Assembly: GCA_964023275.1 (NCBI GenBank)
Contig: OZ029928.1
Coordinates: 20,235,686 to 20,299,685, forward strand
Reading direction: 5' to 3'
DNA: 64,000 bases
DNA from: Norana najaformis
Lineage: Eukaryota; Annelida; Clitellata; Crassiclitellata; Hormogastridae
Shown here: in pieces, positions 13,592 through 56,169 of the stretch
Layout of the letters: each line of letters opens with the position of its first letter
How positions within the stretch are numbered: the stretch's first letter is position 1
The notes under the pieces: generated by a model
Told to the model about the DNA's origin: nothing
Database searches by the model: none
What the model saw: only the letters and a program-made list of their open reading frames with translations
Made by a program: the position numbers and the translations under genes

Positions 13592-14851
13592 TTAAGTATC
13601 TGCAAGTTGTGTCGGAAGCTGTTGAAACAATTGCTTTGGTCCATTGCTTCCGCCGTTATTTCTCGTTGCCTTGGAGACGGGGCAGAACAGTTGAATGAAC
13701 GTCATGCGGAACTTGGTGCTCATTGTGCAGTAGAGCGTGAAGTTGATTCCGTTGTTGACAAGTGCCACAATGTCCATGACATCGCCGAGCGGCGCATAGT
13801 ACCTTTCGAAGAACCGTGCGCCGATGACTCCGCTGAGCAAGGCGAGCATACCCTGCGGCAGTTCGGTTACAAGGAAGAGGATGATGACGACGATGAGCAT
13901 CGATGTCGTTCGGTTGTGCTCTCTCTGCCTCAGCAGCTGGGTGTCCGTTCGGGTCGAGTTGCTTCGAAGGCGCATCGAAGTGCGATGGTTCGATCGAACG
14001 GCGCAGACGATCAGCAGACCGAAAACGGACATCAGGCCACAAGGAATCAATTTGATGAACAAAGCGTGAATCCAGAAATTGAGCTGCATCACCAGCCAAC
14101 CGTATCCAACGCCGACATTAACCCCGACGACCTCATAGATCGTAATCCCATCTTCCTGCTCCGCCTCCTTGTCCACGAATCCCGAACTGCTTTCGTTCTG
14201 CATGACGTAGTCCACGGGCGTGACGTCACTGGCCTGTGACGTCATCGTAGCAGTGACGTCGTCGTGACGTGTGCGGCTGGGGGCGATTGGGCTGTGATTG
14301 GATCGGAGGGGCATCTGGTGAATGGTGAGGGAGAGATAGTTGGGCACGAGGCATACGACGGCCAAGGCGTAGACGCAGACAATGGCAACCTTCGTCCTGC
14401 GCAGGTGGTTGGAGGCGGTCCCTGCCTCTCCCGAGGCCGGGAGGCGCACGAACGAGTAGCGGAAGACGGAGAGAAGGACTCCGAGCCAGATGGACGTCGT
14501 GTGTGACGTCACGGACAGGTGCGCGTGGAAGAGAACGAAGCGCATCCAGTGGATGGTGTTGCGCTGAGGAGTGGCGCGGGTTCCGTGCAGACAGTAGAAC
14601 TGAAGGGCGAATGGAACGTAGCTGATCATCGTCGCCATGTCGGAGACCGCGAGGGCCGTCAGGATGAGGTTCGTCGAGTTGATCATCGATCGTCGACGGA
14701 GGACGATGACGATGAAGAGGTTTCCGAGGACGCCGACCACACACACAGTCAGACTGACGTACCCATGGACAGCGGCGTACGAATGGTGGAATCGACCGAG
14801 ATGGTCAGACAGACTGGCCAGTCCAGCGCCGGACTCATTATTTAGCGCCAT
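13592..14851 (-). CDS. Rhodopsin-class neuropeptide GPCR (DMSR / sex-peptide-receptor-like), intronless
   Basis: This is a complete 419-residue seven-helix receptor in one exon; the ATG at 14849-14851 sits in a good context (GAGATGG). Approximate helices: TM1 30-52, TM2 61-83, TM3 104-130, TM4 152-176, TM5 250-286, TM6 313-340, TM7 352-376. TM1 has the GNxxxI pattern (GNLFIVIVLRRRSM), TM2 has LAVSDM, TM3 ends SVFRY in place of DRY, TM6 contains the VTELPQG motif, and TM7 has NNGINFTLYCTMS in place of NPxxY. HGYVSLTVCVVG, TELPQG and INFxLYCxMS are hallmarks of the invertebrate FMRFamide/myosuppressin-type and sex-peptide (myoinhibitory peptide) receptors, related to vertebrate GPR139/142; such receptors signal through G proteins at the plasma membrane. 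The ligand cannot be read from sequence. N-glycosylation sequons lie at N5 and N219. Extracellular loop 2 is long (about 75 residues, 177-250) and acidic, with no cysteine, and no Cys sits at the top of TM3, so the usual disulfide is missing. The subfamily call is inference; the receptor identity is firm. Confidence 0.9.
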   Translation of the reverse strand: MALNNESGAGLASLSDHLGRFHHSYAAVHGYVSLTVCVVGVLGNLFIVIVLRRRSMINSTNLILTALAVSDMATMISYVPFALQFYCLHGTRATPQRNTIHWMRFVLFHAHLSVTSHTTSIWLGVLLSVFRYSFVRLPASGEAGTASNHLRRTKVAIVCVYALAVVCLVPNYLSLTIHQMPLRSNHSPIAPSRTRHDDVTATMTSQASDVTPVDYVMQNESSSGFVDKEAEQEDGITIYEVVGVNVGVGYGWLVMQLNFWIHALFIKLIPCGLMSVFGLLIVCAVRSNHRTSMRLRSNSTRTDTQLLRQREHNRTTSMLIVVIILFLVTELPQGMLALLSGVIGARFFERYYAPLGDVMDIVALVNNGINFTLYCTMSTKFRMTFIQLFCPVSKATRNNGGSNGPKQLFQQLPTQLADT

Positions 14852-14899
14852 CTCAACTGGAACAACGACGCACAGCGACTGCAGATGAAGACAGGAAAT

Positions 14900-15863
14900 C
14901 CGTCTGATTCATCTAGCGCCTGTTTTCCAGTTGTCCCTGAGCGCAGCTGGCCTAGGAAGGGAACACCGGTGCTTGTTAAAAACGAGATGTGATTGATTAA
15001 CTTGTAACAGAAGGGTTAATTTCTATGGAAACAAGAGAAATTAACCCTCTACATTCAACTTATTTAACTGTTGCTAAAGCTGGTACCCGGTCCAAACACG
15101 GGGACCTTAAATGGCGTGGCGCCCGTTCAAACGGGCAGCGGTGGTGAAGGATCTCACCCGATCAATTCATTGAAAAAAGAGCAGGGTCGAAATCATACTG
15201 TCACTGTAGAAAAACGTCTACACTTACATTCAGTCTTCGTTTTTAAAACTGTTTTCAATTCTAATTGATGTTATTATATTTGGTTTCCGCTATTTATGTA
15301 ATAAATGTGACGACATCGGTTCTACTGTATGATTCGATTAGTTTTCTATCGCCACACGATGAAGAAGGAGCAAATTGCATACCTCGTCCGTTGGAAGTCC
15401 CACGTTCTCGCTAGATACCCGCTTCTCTTGTCGTCTTCTGCTGTTTTAAATGAGTTTTACGTCTCCCCCGTATTGCATGTAAGAAAGTAATTCGCTGATC
15501 ACGATGTCGAATTCAGTTAGGCCTGTAATACGACGAAGAATTCGCAGTTTCACTTTCGCTTTCTGTTTTAATGTTTTTATTTCAATTTGTAGTTTTATTC
15601 GTCAGTTACAGTAGAACAGTTCTGTATCGATGGCTTCACTTACAACGACTTCATCACCAACAGCATTTGCCTCAGCAGCTGAATGGCCAGAGGTGGAGAA
15701 ATGTCATTTATTTCCGTTGAAGATGCTTCCGCCCTCCTGCGCCGTCAGCACCAGAACATCTGGCGAATGACGAACAAGTGGCAGCGGATTCAGCAACAGA
15801 GGCCAACGAGTAATTGGTCGAATACGAACCACGGATGACAATCTCGTTCATCTCTCCTTTGGT

Positions 15864-26510: not shown

Positions 26511-26688
26511 TAAGTTGACTGGTCTGAATTGCTATGAAGATCTCTTTAAATTCTTGACAGTTATGAGTTGTTCGATGTTGGTTAATGATTTTTCGGTGGT
26601 GATCAAGAACAGCTGTAAACTTTGTGAATGTGTCGTCTGTTTTAGAGGCTTTTGACTACCATAGAAATTTTCTGTGAAGCTACACAGA

Positions 26689-29600
26689 ATGGAGCGCTTA
26701 CAAACGTTCTGTGACTCTGCCAGTCAGTCTCTTGCTTATCCGCGACATGATGGTCCAGTGACGCTGATGACGCCCGAGACGCCGGCTGGACACGTAGGAC
26801 AGGGATGTTCGAAGCAGCTGACGCGGGGACCCTCGCGCTCGTTTGGCCAGTCGCCCTACTGCTGCCCAAGCACAACGCAGCAGTCAAAGCTTCTCTACAA
26901 CCTCCTGAGCAACTGGCCAAAAGATGGCGCCGAGCAGATGAGCTGTCTGCCGATCATTGAACACCAACCGGTCTGCCACCAGACACATTACGCGGCGAGC
27001 ACCGAATCCTCGGCCACCGGATCCTCCCAGCCCAATCCACCGCCGTTTAAGTTTGAGTTCAAAGGTCAGCTGGCTCCGGATTCGAGTCGCGACCTGCTGA
27101 TGCCTTACTGTCGCCAGCGCAGTCAGTCGATGGGTTCCAACGGGTGGAGCTTCCTCGACATGAGTCGTACGTCGAGCCACGACAGTCTGACAAGCTACGA
27201 CAGTTTCTCAGACGAGAACCTGCGGAACCACAGCCCGAATCAGCAGCAGTCGGAGGCTCTTCTTGAAATAACGCGGAAGAAACTGATGAATCTGTTGATG
27301 GGTGGAAACGGAGCGGACCAGGGCAGCCCGCACTCCCAGTCGCCCGTGAGTCAGGACGAAGACATGAGGAGCCTGAGTCAACCGGGGAGTCCGCCGTCCA
27401 GTCTGAACTCGCAGGAAGTCTGCCGGAAGTACTCGGAGGGCAGCCAGAGGGTGCACCTGAAGGCGAAGCTGCAGAGCGCCCGCGCCAGGTACGACCACCT
27501 TCCCGTCGACCTCTCGTGCAAACGCAAGAAGTTCATACGGAGCGTCGCGAAACAGTCGCTCATCGAAGGCATCGAGGCTGACATTTTGCCGGACGAAGGC
27601 ATCGACGAATCCACCGACCATTCCATCTTGAAGTCGGTCCTGACGGGACGCGGACGGTCCAACTCTCTGTCCGTGTTCGAACTGAGACGGCTACGCATGG
27701 CCGGTCGGAGTGGCGAAGCGCGTAACGGACACGCTCTGCTGAACGTTAACTTGGACCTGTCGCAGCTGACCGGGCGGATCAACGGTCGCCAGAGGGTGAC
27801 TCTGGCCAAGAAGAACCTTCTGCCGGTCATCGCTCGCATCTCCGATCGGCTGAACAAAATCGTCGAGTTTGCAAAGTCGCTGCCGGAATTCACACGTCTG
27901 TCGCTCGCCGACCAGAAGACGCTGCTCACGAACGCCTGTCCGCGTCTTCTGCTCCTCTACATGGCAGAGACGAACCTCCAGTTCGCCGTGACGACGGTGC
28001 CAGAGGCAGGTGGGTTCCAGGCACCACAGTCTGCGTCCGCGAGCAATTCGTCGCTGAACATGGCGCAGTCTGAGTGGGAAACCCCTACGATGCAGTTCGT
28101 CGAATGCGTCCAGAATTTCATCCGGAAATGTCAGACGGTCGGAATCAGCGCAAATGAATATTTCTACATGAGAATGATTACGCTTTTCCACACTGGTGAG
28201 TCAGTTACTCGTTGCAGTATGTTGTAGGGTCTGTTTATTTCTATGGCGCTCCTGAAGAACCTCTCAGAGGAGAGTAGGTCAGTATTGCATTAATAAGGTC
28301 TGTCTGCCTGTCTGTCTGTCTGGATCTTGTTTTGAACTTAAGTGCAAGTGTGACAGTGGGAGGAATGGTGTAGTGGTTGGGTCATTCGTCAACAAACTGG
28401 ATGGTGTGAGTTCAGTGTCTGGCTATACAGCTTCTGTTTGCATTTACCTGGTTGAAGGGTTTCGAATCGAAGGTGATAGAAATGCTTGCCATTCAAAATG
28501 AAAACTGGGAGGTCTCGCTGTGCTCAAGAAAAGTAGATTTTAGCAAATTCTTTGAAAAGTAGACATGACATTCATCAAAAGCTTCATAAGATTCTTTAAA
28601 AAGTGGATTCTGAATTGTTTTTTTAAAATGTAGATATCAAATTATTTTTGGAAAGTGGATATTAAATTATGTTTAAACTTTTTACAGATTAGCTGTTAGA
28701 TTCTTTTGTCCAAGTTGACCTTTGAAGTCATAAAAACTAGGTAGTTATTGGAAAAATAATTAAATCTAAATAAAGAGCTTGTTTGAAGGCAGTCATAAAG
28801 TTGTTTGGAATGTCAAATGAAGCCGTTGTTCAGTAGTGCATCGTGTAATCTAGTGGCTCTGCTGACGGTGGGGGTGGGGGCTGGCATATTGCCAACTCGC
28901 TTTTTAGTCAGTCAAAGTCTTACTCACCAATCAGTCGCCCAAATGTGTGTGTGTGTGGTTGTGTGTGTGTATGTGTGTGGGTGTGGGTGGGAGCGTAACG
29001 AAGTGGTTATGATGATTATGATTGTCTGACGACGTAGTTGAGAATGACTCTGTTGTACTTGGGCCTAGATGCTGTGTGTGTGTGTGCGTGCGTGTTTGTG
29101 TTTTAGGCGGTTGTTAGCAAAGCCAGAGGCGGGCAATAGATCCGAATGTTTTTTTACAATTCCTGAAAAGACCCTTCGGTCGGTCGTGCTAGAAAATTCC
29201 GGCGAATTAGCCGACTTCTTAGTCATCGTCGTCATCGCTGGTTGTTGGCCTACGTGGGATGGTTACTGTGTCATTCGGGATGTTTGTTCCCTCCTCCCTC
29301 ATCGGAGTTTGCAGTCTCGTTCGTCATTGCTAGTTTTATCAGGCCAAGCACGATCCTCTCCTCTTCTTCCTCTTTGTCCTCCACCTCTTCATCCTCCTCC
29401 TCCTCCTGCTCGTCCTCCTTCGTGCCTGTCCTTGTCCTCCTGGCAGTCTCTGTGTAAATATGACCGAATGGATGCAAACAACCCCTGAAGGTATGTTGTC
29501 TCTTGCCGATGAACACAACAGACAGACAGACAGACAGACAGACGGTCGCCCCCTGGTGTCCACTGACAGATTGTCCCACTCAACCTCATTCAGTTTTAAA

Positions 29601-32600
29601 GGTTTTTCTTCGTGATGTGTTTCTTTTCAAATGACATAAATCTTTTTAACGTTTTTGTTGATGATGACGTCATCAGTCGGTGTCCTCTGTGGTTGGACGG
29701 TTGCCAAGGGTGCAAAAAGGGGGTTTTTCGGCTTTAAGGGGTTTGTCTCTGTCTCTCGCTCTGTTTGCCTGCCTGCCTGTCTGTGTGTATGTCTGTCTGT
29801 GTCTGTATATGTCTGTCTGCTGGAGACGGTGTTTGGTTGAATAGAGGGACAGGTTTTCTTGTGCTTTAAGAAGCAGATCTGTGTTTCTGGGTCGGTTATC
29901 CGTCGCTTGCAATGATTGATTTAAATGCCCCAGTCGCCAGCCAGTGAGAGGGACTCCCTCTTCCACAAATCAGACCGTCCTCATTCCTCCTCTTCCCCTT
30001 ATCTCCCTTCCTGCACCATTTCCATGCACCATCCATCGATGGTGGTCTGACTCTGTCTGCCTGTGGCTCTTGGAACTTGGCCCCGAACCGAATCTGCCTA
30101 TCGGTTTTGTTTTGACTGAGTGCCTGCCTGTGAATGAGCTGGTTCCCGTGGCGACTTGGAATTCGTTGGGCGCTGTCGAAATCTCGAGTTTACGATTTAT
30201 GAAAGGAACAGATTGTGATCTGGGTCAGGTTGACTGTTGGAAATGGGTCGGGACTCGGGCTGATGGAAAATGTGGGTTAAGTAGATCGGTGAAAGTAGGT
30301 CAGTTGGGACTAACCAAGTTGGCGCTAAACTAAGGGGTAAGAATGGGTGGTGATGGTCACCCAAGGGAGGGAGGGTCGTTGCGGGTGGGGAGAGAGATGG
30401 ACAAGAGAAGATCGTGGGTGGTTGAAAGGAGGCCATAGTGCACCAAGTGTGATTAAGTCTGTATTGGCCAAGGCCGTTGTTTGGATTCGTCCAGGGGTAA
30501 AGATCGCCTGCGATGATGGTCTATTCCAGTTTCTAAGAAGTTTCTGGATGTTCCCTACGGAGGAAGACGCGGGGGCTGACTTTAGACAGACAGACAGAGA
30601 CATGTAATCTGATTAATGTCTTTTATTTCCATTTCGTTGCTATTAGTTGTCTTCATAGCGCACGAGTCCCGTCCGTCGGTCGGGGGGTTGGTGTGGTGTG
30701 GGCGGTGGGCCAGAGTAGACGTGGTCCTGTTTATCGGGACCTGACTCAGGGCGAGTGGGTGGGGTCAGTCTAGGCCGGGCGGGGAGGTTGGGCCAAGGTC
30801 CCGTTTGCCCGTGTCTAGGTGCTCATTGCGTTTGCGTTGTTTTTGTGGGCTGCTGGGTATCGCTGTGAGCTGGCGCCTCAGGGCGAGTGTTATCTGTGTC
30901 CCTCTAGCTGTCCGTCCGTCTACTTGACCGTCCGCCTGTCTGTCCGTGTGTTCGTCCTTCAGCTTGTTTTCACTGGCTGCCTGTTTTGCACCGAAGCTTG
31001 TTTTCAGTCATCGTCGTTTCCTTGGACCGTTCTGAAGGCCTCGTGAAATGGGCCGCTGAGGGCTGAGGCCACGACAGGCGCTGAGTTGTTTAAAGCTCCA
31101 GCGCCTGATGACTAAGACTCTGGAGGAGCGGTTCACCCTTGGAAGGGCCTCCGTGGGTGTCGGGATGGAAAAAACCCAACGGTGGGTTGACCTTAGCGGT
31201 CAAGATGGTCATACCCTCGGGAGCGCCGTCTGATGTGGGAACATTTAAAATTGAATTGACTCGGGGGGGGGGGGGGGTCTTCAGCTTGTGTTGCCACGTC
31301 GCTGATCCTAAGAACCGTTCGATGGTTTGGAAAGTTTTGCCTGAACTTTGCCCTGCGCGTGTGTTGTGTTACCTTCGCTTGCCGTGACCTTCCCTTGCCT
31401 TGCTGTGCCTTGCTCGGAGGTTGCCATGCGCCGCTTGCCGAGTATTTTCTGGCAACAGGATATAGTATCAAGTGTCGATAACGACGTCTTGTGTCTGCCA
31501 CGGCCTTTACCTCATTTCAAAAAGACCTCAGGCACGCAACAGTTCGTGAGCATTTAACTCTTCCATCCATCCATCCAGAGAGGGGAAGGAAACCCGGAGT
31601 TGGGTTAATGAGGATAATCGTGAGAACGAGGGGGGAGGGAGAGGGAGAGAGGGAGGGTAGTTGCCTTGTGCGTTGAGACCTAAATACTACGTTTTTGCCG
31701 TTGTTGGGTGGTAACTTCATCGCTGTCAACACGACTTGTTTAGAGTGACGTTTATGAAACTGTACTCGCATGAACCGTGTTTACTAGTGCTCTGCTTAGG
31801 TACGGAGGAGGCGAGGAAAAGGCTAATGGCATCGCCAGAGTCTGAGCTAGGAATATGGAATATGGACCGATGTATACTGGGGGAGGGGAGAGGGAGAGAG
31901 AGAGACCTGGTCTGCTCTCTTACTCACTTGGATATGTTTTGCTACCAATGTGAATCTACACGGTTTTATATAGCAACCTTATGGCCTTGACCCTGCTCCA
32001 TTTTCAAGGTGTTGTGTTTACCAAATAACCTTTGACATTCTCCGGCTCATCTACATAAATATATATATATATGTAGATGTGTGTGTGAGTTTTTATAGCG
32101 CCTGATATGAAGCGGTGGCAAGCGCTGAAGCATGGCAGAGCTAAACTGGTGTGACTTGAGATGCATTTACCGAGGAACCTTTGCCATTTTCTGCCCATTA
32201 CTTTATCCGTCTCTTATGTCGGAGTATTTCCTCAGGATGTTATTGTTTGGGTCTTTTTGGAAAGTGATGAGATGCTTCGTAATTGTTGCCTTGTATTTTC
32301 TGTTTCCACGCAGCATGTCTTGCGTCGAAGGAATTCGTGGAGTCGTCTGATATTCTGCCCTTTAACGGTCTTTAATCGTAGCAGCGCTTTTGCTGCTAAA
32401 AATCTCGGCGGTTCTAAAAATAACGTCTTATATTTTTCTTGTTGACGTCTGATGCAACGTTATGTAGGTCTTAGATGCCTCACCGTTGTGTTGTCTGTCT
32501 GAACGTCTCTTTCTGCGTATCTCTCGCTCTCTGTCTCTCTCTGTCCCTCTCTTTGTTAGTCTGCCTGATGGCTGGATCTTTTGACTCTGTCTTTTTGATG

Positions 32601-34293
32601 AGTTTTTCGTGATTTTTAAAATTCTAATCTTTGACATTTGGGTGTCTCCTGTTCGAAGAAACAGCAGAGGCACGTGAGGTGACCAAGGGCAAAACTAGAA
32701 GAGGAGGTCATTGATCCGCAATGAACCGATCGACCGTGAACTGTCCTGAAGATGGGCGTAGCCAGGGAGAGAGAGAAGGAAGGAAGGAGCAGAGGGTTAT
32801 GTGGCCGTGTGGCAAATGCAAGAAGCAGAACTATCATCGAATATTTGGCCTCGTGTGTGTGTGTGTGTGCGTGTGTGAGTGCGTGTGTCGATGTGTTTAG
32901 CATCACGGTGTCCTATTTTCGTGTCAGCATCTGAGTCAAGGAGAAAGGAGAGAAGATGGAAGCAACATCCGTAGCCATTCGAGCGGCTGAATTCGCCGAC
33001 GTTATTAAACTGAAAACGATCTGCGTATGAAGCTAATAGATTCGCTCTTTTTGCTTATTGCGGCAGAAGTTCATCTATCCGTCCGCCGTCCATTCGGCCG
33101 TTGACCTTTCACTGACCTTTCGTCCGTTGCTGTCTTTGGCTTCCGGCCAGTGGCTTGCTTATCGTTGCTGTCTGGCAGGTACAGCGTTAGGAAGGGAGGG
33201 AGGGAGGGAGGGAGGTATCAGTCGATGCCAGTGTCTTCTGGTGCAGCCGCCGTGGATGGCCAGGCGTCTGATTCTGTGTATTGCTGTCTGTCCGTCTCTG
33301 CGTCCTTCTGTGTTTATGTCGGTTGTTGGGTGGGGAGGCTCTGTCTTGGCCTTGCTGCTTCGTCGGTCGGAACGTGCGGCGCAGCGCAGCCTTTGATTGG
33401 TCAAGTCTCGCACGAGCAGAGACGCTTTCGATGCACAACCAAAACACAGCAGCAGCATCATCAGAGATGGAAGCAGCTGCTGAAACATCAGCAGCAGCAG
33501 CAGCGTTGAGCTGAAGCAGACTTCGTTTGTTCGTTTGGTGGCGTCGTCCAAAATATCCGACCACTGATGCCCTCTGCCGTCACCCAACTGGTTCAGGGAC
33601 ATGGTAGAAAACACGCTCAGACAGACAGACAGACAGGCAGACAGACAGACAGACAGTGAGGGATGGAGAGAAGGCAGCTGATTATTTCTGCATTTTTCTA
33701 ACACCACCATCGAATGACTATACATCAGTCAAGGTCGCTACCCAGTAGCCGTCTCAGAGGAGGAGACTCGACCCTGTACTCTACGCGCTACAGGCAGAGT
33801 GCTCTAACCAATCGGCTACCGTGACCCACATATAAGAGTGATTACCTCATGATGAGCCTATCTCTTGTGTCTGAAATTCTGGGACTGATTACTCGCTTTT
33901 AGGATGATGATGGTGGTGGTGGTGGTGGTGGTGACACACAATTATGATAATTGTTGTTGTTGCATAGATGGTTGTTCTGTTGTAACGGTTGTCTGTGTTG
34001 TTGTCTGTGTTGTTACAGGAGCTGGGATGCTGGAGAGGTCAGACCTGGCCGACCTGATGTACTCGGAGGCGAGACAAGACCTTCAGGACCTCGTCCAACA
34101 TAACCACCCAACAGAGAAACTGCGCTACTCGACCCTTCTGCTGTCACTGCACACTCTGTTCGGCATCCACTGCGGGATGCTGCAGTCGCTCTTCTGCCAG
34201 CACCTCGCAGACTCCGGTGGCATCGGCGCCTTCGTCAACGACGCACTAAATGCCGCCGCAGCAGCCGCTGAAGATTCGACGCCCAGCAACTGA
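26689..34293 (+). CDS. Nuclear-receptor ligand-binding-domain protein without DNA-binding domain
   Basis: Two coding exons, 26689-28195 and 34019-34293, join in phase (G|GA, Gly503) across a 5.8-kb GT-AG intron to give 593 residues. Residues about 372-575 are a nuclear-receptor LBD: the helix 3-5 signature EFAKSLPEFTRLSLADQKTL at 393-412, then a helix 7/8 block GISANEYFYMRMITLF (485-500) and a helix 9-10 block HNHPTEKLRYSTLLLSLHTL (527-546), closest in style to NR2/NR0B receptors. No C4 zinc-finger DNA-binding domain precedes it. The first 370 residues are Ser/Gln/Pro-rich and carry two LxxLL motifs (LYNLL 69-73, LMNLL 199-203), an ILKSVL motif (313-318) and PVDLS (272-276), a CtBP-binding type followed by a basic CKRKK. 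Helix 12 lacks the acidic AF-2 core. By analogy with DAX1/SHP it may be a corepressor that pairs with other receptors; that is inference. An in-frame stop (26662-26664) precedes the ATG unless an upstream exon is spliced at 26665, so a longer N-terminus is not excluded. Confidence 0.8.
29965..30203 (+). mobile_element. LINE 3' end, family C
   Basis: Contains GGAACTTGGCCCCGAACCGA, TTTTGTTTTGACTGAGTGCC, GAATGAGCTGGTTCCCGTGG and GTTGGGCGCTGTCGAAATCT, ending GAGTTTACGATTTA. Confidence 0.7.
33676..33830 (-). mobile_element. tRNA-derived SINE, family D
   Basis: Read on the minus strand it starts GGGTCACGGTAGCCGATTGG, TTAGAGCACTCTGCCTGTAG (tRNA A-box region), then GTACAGGGTCGAGTCTCC (B box), and ends with the family D body and AAATGCAGAAATAATC. 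The tRNA resemblance is clear, but the 3' half of a tRNA acceptor stem is absent, so it is a SINE and not a tRNA gene. Confidence 0.75.
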
Positions 34294-50700: not shown

Positions 50701-53700
50701 GAGGCGTTTGATGTTAGTGCCTATCTCTCTGTCTGTCTCTCTGTCTGTCTCTCTGTCTGTCTTGGTTGATGTCTAGAGTTGTGTTGCTCGATTCCGGAAT
50801 TTTCAGATTCTGAGTTGTTGCTTGTGATGAAGATGATGATAAAGTAAACATTTGAATGGTTACGATGATTATGGTGGTTAGGATGATGATAATGATTATT
50901 GATGATTATGGGACAATCATAAGGGTTTTGGTGATGATGATGTTGACAATGATGATGATTTTCTGTGGCAGGTGGTTGGTGAGATTCCAGAAATGGTTCG
51001 CACAGGGTGTTGGGTCGGCGATTGTTTCATCTACACGAACAGCGTCAATCGGCTGAATTACTACATTGGAGGCGAGATCGTCACAGTTTCTCACCTAGAT
51101 AGGTATTGTGTCTCACCTTGACAGGCATTTTACTGCACCTGGACAGGTATTATGCCCCAAGTGTTAGACTTGGCCAGGGCAGGGGCTTTGCCTACAGGTC
51201 TTTTAATGTCTTCCTTCTAGTTTTCCCTTCAGCTGATGTGTGTATGTTTATGCTTCTGTGTACCTGCTTGAAGTCACTGAGTAAATCCACGATTCAGAAT
51301 CAGATAGGACTACGAACACTTGTGATTAGTTTCCGTTAGGGCATATGAACGAGCGTGTTTTGCTGATGGTTGTAGGGTGATGTACCTGCTTGGTTACATT
51401 CCGAAGGACAACCGCATCTATTTGGGCGACAAGGAGTTGAACGTCGTCAGCTATGCTCTGCTGCTGTCGGTGCTCGAGTATCAGACGGCCGTCATGAGAC
51501 GAGACTTTGAAACGGCCGACAAGGTGCTTCCGACCGTTCCGAGAGAACAGAGAACGCGAGTGGCACACTTCCTTGAGAAGCAGGTGAGCAGTGCGGTGAC
51601 GGGCAACGCTCGCTACACATGGGGCCGAAAAACCAGATGGGTTGGGTTGGGAAGGACAATGAATAGAGTGGATCAGAGAAACCATGTGTAGAATGGGGTT
51701 TAGTCTCTTTGAAACTGATACTTCTGTTTCTGTTTGCTCGACGGCCTTTTTAAGGCTGACGTCATTTGCACAGTGTTTAGAGTCTTAGTCAGGTTGTTTT
51801 TGATTGATCTCATTTCATTACAAACACGTGAAGCATCCACCAACAATCACTTAAGCCTTGATGATGATGATTGTTTTTGATTGAAAGATGAGTGTTTACC
51901 TTAGCTTTACAGAAGTTGGATTAAGTTGGTAGAGGGTGTTTGCTGTTGACAGGGATTTAAGTCGCAGGCGATGGCTGTGACCTGTGACCCAGAGCATAAG
52001 TTTGATCTGGCACTTCAACTGGGAGACCTTAAGATCGCCTACCAGTTGGCCAAGGAAGCTGAGGTATGTCGACCTGGTTCTTGTCTTATGGCTGCCACAG
52101 TTGCGTCTGAGCTTATCTTGAACATACCTTCATACATAACATAGGTTCAGCTTTAAAGGTAAATTTAAGCAGTTTGTTTTGAATTGATAAATAATTTAAT
52201 GAGCAATTTTAATGATGAATTTACCAGATGTTTCTACAATAATTTAAAGTCGGTGATGTCTATAAGTGGATTTGGGAATGGTTTCAGTTTGGGCTGCTTC
52301 ATCAGTTGGCCTTAGAAGCAATTCACATTCATGGCAGACGCATTGACAGGAGGCAGATGCGGACCTTAATCCTCGCAGCAGTTCAGTGCTATTAGCAGTT
52401 GCTACTAGCAGTTGCTGTTACTGGCTGTTGCAGTGTGACTGTAGCAGTGTTGTCTTGTTGCAGTCTGAACAGAAGTGGAAGCAGTTGGCTGAGCTGGCCA
52501 CATCCAAGTGTGAGTTTCAGTTGGCACAGGAGTGTCTGCACGAGGCGCAGGACTTTGGCAGTTTGCTTCTGCTGGCCAGTTCGGCTGGCAACGCTAGCAT
52601 GGTCGGTCGGTTGGGGGAGACAGCGGAGAAGGCCGGCCAGAACAACGTTGCTTTCCTCTCCTACTTTGTCCTTGGAAAGTAAGCAAAGTCTCTGTTTTTG
52701 GGAAGACTGCGGTTGTAGAGGGTCGTTGTCTTACATGTAAATGCAACCTTAGTTAATCTCACATGTACAGAGGACTGCTTTGTTATGACTTGCAAGTGGA
52801 AACCCGTAAGACGAGATGACCAGATCTTATGTTGTCTGTCAGTGAGAGCTTTCAGCTGGCAACAAAATTCTGTGTATGTGTTGTAAGATGTGGTGTGTTG
52901 TGCACAGTTGACTCAAATGCCCTGACTTATAAGATGCCCTGACCTATAAAATGCCCTGACCTATAAGATGTCCTGACCTATAAGATATAGAAGCAGCAGG
53001 TGGCTTTGGTCTGTGTCGTAATGGATGCATAATCAGTGCTTTGAAAAATGCAACGTTTGGCTGGACGACGGCTGCCAAACTCTAAACTGCAAGATGCATG
53101 TGTCTGGAATCTGTTGGTTTAGGATGTGCGTGACGCTTTGTAAGAGGCGCAGGGAGCAGTGATGATGGGTGTTTGTTGTAGGCTGGAAGAGTGCTTGGAG
53201 CTACTGATCAACACTGGACGAATGCCAGAAGCCGCATTCTTCGCAAGGACCTACATGCCAAGCCAAATCTCAAAGTATGTGTCAAGTTGTTGAACAACTT
53301 CATCATCATCATCAATAACTGTGGGCTCAATGCCCGTAGGTGTCTGATGCCCGTTTCACAATGTGTCTCCACTCGATTCTGTTCTGAGCCGCATGTCCCA
53401 GTCTCTGCAAGTCCGCCCCACACCACTCCTCAATGTCATCCACCCACTCTCGATGTGGTCTGCCTCTTTTGTTCGTACCTTCCATAATTCCAAACATCAG
53501 AGTCTTAATATTTCTGTCATCCTTCATTCTACAGATATGTCCAAACAATCCAAGTTTTCGCTGAATAACCTTCTGCAGTAGATTCTCGGTTATAGCCACT
53601 CTTTCGTTAACCTCTTCATTCCTAATCTTCTGAGTCCATCCGATCCTTAAGATTTTTCTGTAACATTTTCTCTCAAATGCCAAGACTCTCCGTCGTGAGT

Positions 53701-56169
53701 CTTTTGTCAGGACCCATGTCTCACATCCATACATCATGGTGCTAAATACACATGTCTTTAATACCTCCAGTTTTGTTTTCATGCTGATTGCTCTGCTCTT
53801 CCAAGTTTTATCCATTGCTTTCAACACTGCTATTCCCCTCGCTATTCGTATCTTTATTTCACTTTTGCAATCTAGGTCATATGTCATATGTCATAACAAC
53901 TTGCACTGCTGTTAATTGAAAGATAGTGCTTTAAATGAACTGCTTTGCATTGAATTGCTGGCAAGTGGGATTCTTTGCAAATTATTAGTTTAAGAATTGT
54001 AACTGACAGTAATTCTGCTTTGATGTAGTCACTGTTGTCATATTTGAGGTTGTTTCCTTCGAGATGATTCATTCGATCGCTTTGCAAACTTTGACTGATG
54101 ACTTCGTATAACAGCAGTATAGAAGTCTCTTCGGTTTAGGTAGCTTCTTTTTTTCGTGTGTCACAGTGTGCTTACTTGTTGTGGTTAGGGTGGTTGGTTT
54201 GTGGCGCGAGTCGCTGTCAAAGAAGAACGCCAAAGCAGCACAGTCGCTGGCCGATCCGACGGAGTATGAGAACCTCTTTCCAGGACTCGCAGACGCTTTT
54301 AAGACGGAACAGTTCCTGTCCGATCAAAGACGTGACGTCATTCCAGCTGCCAAGTTCTCCAACGTACAGGTATGCATTGTCATCTGTTGAGTCCAGAATA
54401 AAGTAATTCTGTCATTAATGCTTCATGGTCGATTTAGGCGTCTGTTTACCCCAAAGGACACAAGTTCAAGTCCTGGGCGTTTTTTGCTGGGTCAGAAGTT
54501 TACTGAGGGTTTTTTAACCCTAACCGTTGACGTGATGATTGATTTTATTTGTAGCCGAATCACGAGAGACAGCCGGTGCTGGAGATGAAGGAGGCAGAAG
54601 AGAGCGGGGAATTCACGTACATAGCTGGCCTGAAGTCTGCTGCTGCAGCTGAAGTTACGAATGAGGAAGGTCCACTTTCTCCGCCTCCAACCCCTACATC
54701 CGTAAGTTGTATTCGCTTGACCAGCGTTTCTTGTTTTTGTTGTCCAGAGTGCGAATGGAGTTGTCTGTTAACCAGTGTGTTTTGTTATGGATTAATGTTA
54801 TGGATTATGTTACGTTGTCTTGATCCAGTTCTAACCGTGACTTTCTCGTTTTCTTTTGAGGTAAACAAAGTCTGACTGAGACAGCCTTTACAAAGGGTCA
54901 GATTTTGCAGTCTAGCTAGGTAGGGTGATTGCAGACATTGCCTATGATGGAATCTCCTAAGGTTTTTGAATCTGATGACAAGAAATTTTGCAATCATGTG
55001 TTTGTCCTTGCCGTATAAGCTCTGTGATTAATAATCATGATAATAATCGTAATCATGATTTATCAAGTACAGTAAATGTCACTTGTTTTTCTGAGGCTTA
55101 GTTTAAATTATTCCAATGAGTACCAAGGAGTTGGCTTTGAGGAATCTGTAATTAGCTGAATTTCATTTTGTGAAGAGTTTAAATGTGTTGTTCTTGTGGT
55201 GACATTGAAGGAGACGAGCCATTTGCAGAAGCCGCCATTGCTAATGCCATCCTCTGTCACTCCAGCAACACCACCCGCTGCTGCTGCACCCGCTGCACCC
55301 ACTCCACCAGCTGCTACTGCTGCTGCCAGTGCTCAGCCGCCTCAGCCAGCCGTGGAAACCGTGAAGCAGTCAACCGTGAAGACGCTGCCATCCAAGCTGG
55401 ACGAGATGGAGCTGGATTTGGATATGGAAATAGAAAACATGAAGCTCGATGACAACATTTATCCCTTGGTAAGCAAGTGAGACTCGGTTGGATTGTGTCA
55501 GTTTCATGGGGGCAGGAGGAGGTATATTGGGGAGTGGTATATTGTGCCTTCAAGTACTGGTAGAGCTCTCAAAAGCCAGACTTCTTGTTTCCTGGATGTA
55601 GTCATTTAATTAGAGTAGGTGAGAAGACCTGTTCTAGGTTGATGAATTTAAAATGCCAGTAGGGCGTTGGTGGTGTTTGACCAGACGCCCAAAAGCGCAT
55701 AATATTTTAATATAACTATTTTAACTGTGAAACACAGAATCAGACACAGAAGTCGAAATATAAGAGAATTGTGTAGCAAATTCCACACATGACGAACTAA
55801 TTATCCAAATGAACGAGAAACAAAAACAACGGCCATCTTGGCCACCGGATACACAGCGAGTCCCCTGGTGGATCGGATGGAGTTGCAACTGGACAGGAGG
55901 CAGAAGAAAATCAAAAATCAGATTAGAAATCAGATAAAACTGTTGATGGGAATCTTTTTTTGAAATTAGGAAAAGAGTGAAATGTCATTTAGGATTGGTG
56001 AGAAGCACTTGTGAACACACGAGTAGTTTGAAAATGGTAAAACACGAGAACCAAGTGGCGGTTGGTCTAAGCATTTTGGTTGGTCTGTTGTTGATGATTG
56101 GCGATTGGTGTTGTTCTCTTGTAGGCAGCTGATATAAACTTGGACGATGATGTCGAAGACTGGGAGTAG
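44723..56169 (+). CDS. COPB2: Coatomer subunit beta-prime (COPI coat)
   Basis: Beta'-COP is the WD40 subunit of the COPI coat that retrieves KKxx/KxKxx cargo from Golgi to ER. Exons: 44723-44725 (ATG only), 45259-45396, 45852-45938, 46159-46285, 46498-46646, 47273-47419, 47841-47940, 48423-48565, 48987-49186, 49415-49614, 50028-50134, 50569-50712, 50972-51102, 51376-51583, 51953-52063, 52464-52678, 53182-53274, 54189-54369, 54555-54701, 55211-55468, 56125-56169. All junctions are GT-AG and keep frame, giving about 977 residues. The first WD40 propeller spans about 2-300 (DHLRCIAVHP-type repeats, [17 protein letters not shown]), the second propeller/coatomer WD region about 300-610, and the alpha-solenoid about 610-830 ([16 protein letters not shown]). 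The tail (about 878-963) is Ala/Pro-rich, then acidic, ending DDVEDWE; it makes the protein longer than the roughly 900 residues usual in vertebrates. Exon 1 is the weakest part: its donor is ATG|GTTGGT, but exon 2 opens exactly at [10 protein letters not shown], as in other animals. Confidence 0.95.
45512..45612 (-). mobile_element. LINE 3' end, family A (in COPB2 intron 2)
   Basis: Reversed copy: TCTAATCTAATCTTATGACT, TCTGTAGTGCTATTATCATA, ATGCCCAAGGCATCAATCGA. It ends near GTCAGAATCGTAATCCG. Confidence 0.7.
46368..46420 (+). mobile_element. LINE 3' end, family A, short (in COPB2 intron 4)
   Basis: TGCCTTGAGAATTATGATAA, TGGTGCTGTAGAAGTCGTTG, GATAAGACTAG. Confidence 0.6.
46930..47118 (-). 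mobile_element. tRNA-derived SINE, family D (in COPB2 intron 5)
   Basis: Minus strand: CACAGTAGCTGATTCGATAC (A-box region), GTACAGGTTCAAATCCTCC (B box GGTTCAAATCC), TGTAGGGACTTTAACC, GGCGCCATCGATTGATGCTT, ending GTGGAGCTTACTAAATGCAG, AAATAATAATCC. Confidence 0.78.
48236..48402 (-). mobile_element. SINE family E, 3' part (in COPB2 intron 7)
   Basis: Reversed: AGTAAAGTATCTCAAATCGC, GGGAAGGCACTCATTTCC, AGGCCCTTGAACCGG, ACAAGGTCCTGGACACAAGA, GTGCATCACAAGACTTG. It lies directly before the acceptor of exon 8. Confidence 0.65.
49850..49992 (+). mobile_element. LINE 3' end, family A (in COPB2 intron 10)
   Basis: AATTCAACCGAGCTTCTGCA, ACGGATTATGATTTTGATTG, ACTTGAAGCTACCATTGACT, ACCTTGGGCATTATGATAAA, GGCGCCATAGAAGTCATTAG. 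The upstream part corresponds to the coding end seen in the longer copy at 58225-58545. Confidence 0.7.
50195..50475 (+). mobile_element. tRNA-derived SINE, family E (in COPB2 intron 11)
   Basis: TTGGTCAATGATCACGCAGT, TACGGGTTCTACTCCGTGTA (B box), ACGACCCTGGGCAAGTTGTT, GGTACCGGCGTAAGCTGGGA, CCGTGTCCAGGACCTTGGGA, GGGATACTTTATG. Confidence 0.78.
52919..52987. repeat. 17-bp tandem repeat, four copies (in COPB2 intron 16)
   Basis: Units of the form GCCCTGACCTATAAGAT. Each holds TGACCT, except the first, which reads TGACTT. Confidence 0.85.
53285..53890 (-). mobile_element. 5'-truncated LINE, ORF2 C-terminus (antisense in COPB2 intron 17)
   Basis: A 186-residue frame (53887-53327, minus) matches the region after the reverse transcriptase in many non-LTR retrotransposons: [20 protein letters not shown], then [38 protein letters not shown] and [20 protein letters not shown]. 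The palm and the endonuclease are absent, so only the 3' end was copied. After the stop come about 40 bp ending in GATGATGATGATGAAG-type units, a likely 3' tail. The frame has no internal stop, which suggests a young insertion. Confidence 0.85.

Follow-up and report, generated by a model that had tools for sequence, protein, structure and literature searches.

This locus raises the question of what a nuclear-receptor ligand-binding domain (LBD) does in a protein that carries no zinc-finger DNA-binding domain (DBD). We analyzed a window of 64,000 nucleotides of Norana najaformis DNA, located on contig 16 (C16) of a 608 Mb animal genome in 17 contigs, in which a plus-strand gene of two exons runs from an ATG at 26689 to a stop at 34293 and encodes 593 residues, as read from open frames and splice sites. 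The original prediction for this gene was a DBD-less LBD protein that joins LxxLL docking motifs to a CtBP-type motif, much in the manner of a DAX1/SHP repressor, in an architecture for which no described family was known. Our analysis suggests that the product is quite probably a protostome-type NR0B orphan receptor from a dispersed family of five paralogues, and that it would dock on other receptors as a corepressor and bring in CtBP.

The gene, its four relatives and the absent DNA-binding domain

The exon 1 frame is open from 26665 and extends over about 510 codons, and a GT-AG intron of 5.8 kb joins it to exon 2; three alternative frame-keeping joins would give products of 592, 588 and 590 aa. 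An in-frame TAG closes the frame upstream unless an exon splices in inside the eight codons that separate this stop from the ATG. An in-frame stop 1-3 codons before the first ATG is also found in the relatives on contigs C4, C3 and C6, and not in the one on C7. The gene is composed of the following features:

26662..26664 (+), in-frame TAG, 8 codons 5' of the ATG, from reading of the sequence
26689..28195 (+), coding part of exon 1, encoding the N-terminal region (residues 1-366) plus the first LBD half; open frame with a GT donor at 28196 and relatives on C7, C6, C4 and C3
27787..28195 (+), first half of the LBD, from residue 367, including the FAKSLPEFTRLSLADQKTLL signature; Pfam and PDB profile
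28196..34018 (+), intron at FH-x-G; place and phase match the four paralogues, by the join chosen for each
34019..34293 (+), exon 2, with the second half of the LBD, a poly-Ala tail and the stop; open frame, with exon 2 relatives at all five loci
34231..34248 (+), place of the activation function 2 (AF-2) core, reading FVNDAL with Asp for Glu; alignment

Pfam Hormone_recep was matched in exon 1 at 40.2 bits (cut-off 23.5), while exon 2 alone gave no Pfam match above a cut-off. Combined with the lack of any zf-C4 match described below, this bears out the proposed nuclear-receptor LBD without C4 zinc fingers, and the AF-2 glutamate is absent as had been stated, with Asp standing there in FVNDAL.

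When the exon 1 product was used as a query against the genome, the C16 gene and four relatives, on C7, C6, C4 and C3, were returned. The same set of five was obtained when exon 2 or the most diverged copy served as the query. All five consist of a large exon that encodes the N-terminus and the first LBD half, followed after an intron at FH-x-G (5.8-8.3 kb) by a short second exon; where several joins kept the frame in a paralogue, the matching one was chosen, and the start position of the C7 copy is unsure. LBD identity to the C16 gene is 51% for C7, 55% for C6, 57% for C4 and 39% for C3. The exon 1 frames of the four paralogues run over 466-604 codons and their exon 2 frames are open. At the AF-2 place, C6 reads FIAEAL and C4 FVEHEL, with C7 and C3 further diverged, such that the Glu stays in place in one of the five copies (C6 only). 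A conserved AF-2 core is therefore not a feature of this family, and we do not treat such a core as defining NR0B. As expected for an animal gene, no relative was encoded by any of the 14 viral and 74 prokaryote stretches that matched a pattern in the contig collections.

The absence of a DBD was examined by a six-frame, genome-wide search for zf-C4, which gave 126 matches, with 150 of 151 candidates scored. On the same strand, the first match upstream of the gene is 14 Mb away. A hidden Markov model (HMM) built from five DBDs of the same genome found none in the window or in the 53 kb upstream of 26665, and it matched both RXR control loci. This observation is further strengthened by the Pfam list of LBDs, in which 63 matches formed 45 clusters. 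For 40 of these, a zf-C4 on the same strand is listed no more than 26 kb upstream. The five clusters without one are a COUP-TF copy and a weak match with stops, both on C17, and three family members, namely those on C16, C7 and C6. Of the two relatives off the LBD list, C4 and C3, neither has a nearby zf-C4 in the genome-wide list. A zinc-finger exon upstream of 26665, which the original prediction had named as the finding that would tell against it, was thus sought in the genomic sequence and none was found. Since zinc fingers are absent, hormone response elements would not be bound in the usual way. An isoform of the E75/E78 type without a finger, an idea taken from general knowledge, was dropped, as there is no DBD at the locus.

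Two other loci were recorded in the course of the DBD searches. The COUP-TF-type LBD at C17:14296249-14306139 (minus strand) has its nearest listed upstream zf-C4 1.7 Mb away and no DBD in 13.9 kb upstream by the HMM of own-genome DBDs, which makes it a second candidate DBD-less receptor or else a gene with an exon that is distant or missing. A 15-residue DBD-like fragment (E 0.008), located some 4.9 kb 5' of the C4 copy, sits inside a 29-residue frame with no zinc-binding pattern; it is probably a chance match and possibly a relic.

Probable placement with NR0B and the N-terminal motifs

A tree of LBDs, which the original prediction had proposed as a check, was built from 30 sequences (6 from PDB, 5 of the family and 19 chosen from this genome, with near-copies of COUP and NR1 types among the omissions). 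The five family LBDs were monophyletic (100/100) and grouped with DAX1 and SHP at 97/95. The same grouping was obtained in five reduced data sets, with Shimodaira-Hasegawa-like approximate likelihood ratio test (SH-aLRT) values of 76.6-89.7 in a quick search. With SHP as a query against the genome, the C16 exon came top at 1.9e-4 and an NR2E-like exon followed at 2.1e-4, both at 29.3 bits. Membership of the family in NR0B (DAX1/SHP-like) is thus well supported by sequence comparison, long branches noted. The family is consequently not without described kin, as had been supposed; it groups with NR0B, which is already known outside vertebrates (oyster, snails).

In a single-sequence PDB search, since superseded by a profile search, RAR was best over 38 residues only, and NR0B1 (1.5e-4) and NR0B2 (5e-4) matched over the whole exon stretch. 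NCBIfam gave nothing useful and Rfam no match at gathering scores. Structure prediction for residues 300-502 with the five paralogues gave no confident fold (mean predicted local distance difference test score, pLDDT, 44.6; predicted template modeling score, pTM, 0.28). The single intron falls at the same LBD place in all five genes, which we take to be the place of the vertebrate NR0B intron; many other receptors in this genome also break about there, and the position is not discriminating.

LYNLL, LMNLL, PVDLS and ILKSVL are all present at the residues given for them in the original prediction, and comparison of the five N-termini, which can be aligned in part, separates the conserved from the unconserved. 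The motif patterns were picked after the sequences had been seen, and it is conservation, not the shuffle P-value, that bears the weight. The N-terminal motifs of the C16 copy are:

26893..26907 (+), LYNLL (residues 69-73); among the paralogues only C4 shows a counterpart, LFQLL, which has the same residue number (69) but is not paired with it by the alignment
27112..27132 (+), RQRSQSM, basophilic Ser motif; C7 RPRSQSM, C6 RERSQST, diverged in C4 and C3
27283..27297 (+), LMNLL (residues 199-203); unconserved (C7 FKRLS, C6 LLKLW, C4 LVGLM)
27424..27447 (+), RKYSEGSQ; C7 RKYSVGSQ, C6 RRYSEASQ, absent from C4 and C3
27502..27531 (+), PVDLSCKRKK, CtBP-type PxDLS (residues 272-276) with a basic run; C7 PMDLTCKRKK, C6 PIDMTCRKKR, C4 PMDLTCKRRC, and C3 PLCLTFKKRK with the core lost
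27622..27642 (+), SILKSVL, NR0B-type LxxLL-like box; pattern in 5/5 paralogues
27649..27672 (+), RGRSNSLS, basophilic Ser run directly after the SIL box; C6 RSRSYSMS, C4 RSRSQSFS, C7 RKRSHTFS, not C3

The pair LYNLL and LMNLL, from which docking had originally been argued, does not provide a good basis for it. Three of the five N-termini contain a strict LxxLL, the one in C3 being its SIL box, the pair is poorly conserved among the paralogues, and two strict LxxLL motifs in an N-terminus are barely unusual against shuffles (expected 0.37, P 0.052). ILKSVL (residues 313-318), which had been listed without being part of that argument, lies inside SILKSVL, and the pattern SILxx[VIML]L recurs in all five copies, twice in C3, where the two are not lined up by the alignment; its chance expectation is 0.003. 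The conserved, predicted docking motif is ILKSVL in this NR0B-type form, and SHP likewise has an LxxLL-like box N-terminal to its LBD. The CtBP-type PVDLS motif held up at the sequence level, being kept in three of the four paralogues. The pattern P[VIM]D[LM][ST]C[KR][KR], including the flanking Cys and basic residues, is found in 4/5 copies, and the chance expectation of PxDL[ST] is 0.024. PIDMT and PMDLT are read as CtBP-type because E2F7 PIDLS, which binds CtBP and loses binding on a DL change, and p66-beta PVDMS, which is termed PLDLS-like, count as such in the part of the source drawn on here (PMC4063256).

The Ser motifs, which are preceded by basic residues, are conserved in three or four of the five paralogues and are possible kinase or 14-3-3 sites.

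Proposed mechanism and alternative explanations

In the proposed mechanism, the SILKSVL box would fill the coactivator groove of DNA-bound nuclear receptors and PVDLSCKRKK would bring in CtBP, such that the docked protein together with CtBP could repress the DNA-bound receptor. Control of docking or location may lie with the basophilic Ser motifs adjacent to the box. Because its own AF-2 is degenerate, the protein is probably constitutive, not hormone-switched. We infer docking, CtBP recruitment, repression and phospho-control from these motifs, and the DBD-less corepressor design that had been likened to DAX1 and SHP fits the tree, the SIL box and the CtBP-type motif.

Several observations weigh against this reading. 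A forced clade of the family with COUP was worse, yet was not rejected by the approximately unbiased (AU) test (p-AU 0.073), and neither was an arrangement in which NR2C, and not the family, joins DAX1 and SHP (p-AU 0.053). In a search of PDB chains with the five-LBD profile, COUP-TF2 was best at 75.8 bits, followed by NR0B1 (59.1), NR2F6 (58.4), NR0B2 (56.9) and RXR (55.2). With DAX1 as the query, the best genomic match was an NR2E-like gene (5.6e-4, 56 residues), with the C16 exon second (1.5e-3, 135 residues). The branches of the family and of DAX1/SHP are long, and long-branch attraction is possible. The COUP-TF2 score and the unrejected COUP clade would suit a DBD-less offshoot of the genome's own COUP-TF (NR2F) expansion, NR0B-like by convergence or long branches and acting mainly via COUP-TF/RXR heterodimers, as would the ten COUP-TF-type LBD loci named by eye (C5, two each on C8, C14 and C15, C10, C3 and C17), one of which is diverged. 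We regard such an origin as improbable, given that the 97/95 grouping with NR0B is retained in the five reduced sets, that the SIL box is held in common with DAX1, and that the slow evolution of COUP sequences by itself lifts their scores. The DBD of a COUP-type NR2F receptor is lacking, as no zf-C4 was found.

The CtBP step is weakened in turn by the C3 copy, which is without the PxDLS core. An NR0B-type receptor might repress by competition and dimerization only, as SHP partly does, with the PxDLS-like motif serving as a nuclear localization patch or as the site of another partner. The basic run CKRKK directly after the motif, the basic residues that C3 keeps without the core, and a SHP review with no occurrence of CtBP (PMC3346990) all agree with this. 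A nuclear signal, however, does not need the P-x-D-[LM]-[ST] core that 4/5 copies hold, and we consider repression by these routes alone rather unlikely. It is very improbable that the gene encodes an ordinary receptor whose DBD exon is far upstream or was missed. Possible acceptors can be seen by eye just 5' of the ATG in exon 1, and the C17 COUP-TF copy shows that an LBD with no listed DBD nearby occurs outside the family, but the stop ahead of the ATG and the empty zf-C4 searches of the window, the 53 kb upstream and all five loci, with the nearest same-strand upstream match megabases away, argue to the contrary. Slighter still is the chance that the five loci are a family of decaying pseudogenes: the degenerate AF-2 and the diverged C3 copy could be taken as decay, whereas the long open frames of exon 1, the open exon 2 frames and paralogue LBDs 39-57% identical to that of C16 could not.

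Taking the NR0B-type, CtBP-recruiting corepressor as the favored explanation, the five-copy expansion and the built-in CtBP-type motif may be new, as neither a multi-copy NR0B family nor a PxDLS-bearing NR0B was found in the open-access literature among the matches listed. The RIP140 (NRIP1) corepressor combines an NR box with PxDLS and uses CtBP. We tentatively raise the possibility, on balance a doubtful one, that NR0B in this animal is a five-member set of self-contained corepressors, with docking box, CtBP site and LBD in one protein, doing the work of LCOR or RIP140. To our knowledge, repression by DBD-less receptors and the pre-vertebrate age of the DAX1/SHP mechanism have been little tested outside vertebrates. 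Should PxDLS also occur in the NR0Bs of other protostomes, use of CtBP could date from the ancestor, with DAX1/SHP having lost it. Point changes in a family that conserves both a docking box and a CtBP-type motif give a direct test of mechanism, for which C3 (no PxDLS core) and C6 (AF-2 Glu kept) offer natural variants as controls.

Genomic setting and comparison with known systems

A G-protein-coupled receptor (GPCR) gene of the Srw/rhodopsin type lies in the window at 13592-14908 on the minus strand. It has 44 matching places in the genome, and its best-scoring paralogue (C7:19189679-19190788, 56% identical) lies some 55 kb away from the family member on C7, the two genes being arranged divergently as they are at C16. 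This one neighbor pair points to a block duplication as the origin of the C16 and C7 loci. Besides the COUP-TF-type loci, other multi-copy LBD loci, also named by eye, include nine of one NR1-type, two HNF4, two RXR and three of ERR type, and with COUP-TF, HNF4, RXR and ERR all in multiple copies, large-scale duplication in this genome is possible. An open frame at 53327-53890 (minus strand) resembles, by eye, a piece of a non-long-terminal-repeat (non-LTR) retroelement reverse transcriptase; Pfam gave DUF6451 only, below the cut-off.

Of the known systems, COUP-TF (NR2F) has the closest LBD by single profile score. It differs in having a DBD, and the tree separates the two, not decisively. 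The likeness to LCOR and RIP140 is a working comparison only, between proteins that are not homologous: an NR box and PxDLS are present by sequence in the C16 family, and LCOR has one NR box and tandem PXDLS motifs that recruit CtBP, in the portion of the source drawn on here (PMC9139824). Both are without an LBD, unlike the family, and LCOR has a helix-turn-helix domain.

Parallels are also provided by molluscan genes, as described in parts of the respective articles. Oyster CgNR0B is described as a gene without a DBD (PMC4070562) and carries weight late in oyster development, and BgDAX and LgDAX of two snails are placed in group 0B (PMC4388693). The family resembles these in being NR0B outside vertebrates, with DBD loss stated for CgNR0B. 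It differs in copy number, with one gene each in those descriptions versus five here. The SHP review, in the sections drawn on, calls the group vertebrate-specific and gives AF-2 competition, corepressor recruitment and DNA-binding block as the routes of SHP repression (PMC3346990).

Overall, the C16 family is like DAX1 and SHP in having an LBD without C4 fingers and an LxxLL-like box before it, and in falling into one clade with them in the tree. Like the DAX1 genes, for which two exons and one intron within the LBD are described in the part of the source drawn on here, the C16 gene has two exons and a single LBD intron, and the sea bass DAX1 box reads NSILYNILKS (PMC1891300). The AF-2 core is conserved in DAX1 according to the same part of that source (PMC1891300), whereas AF-2 is degenerate in the C16 family. 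The family is distinguished from both DAX1 and SHP by its five copies and by a longer N-terminus that carries PxDLS and Ser motifs.

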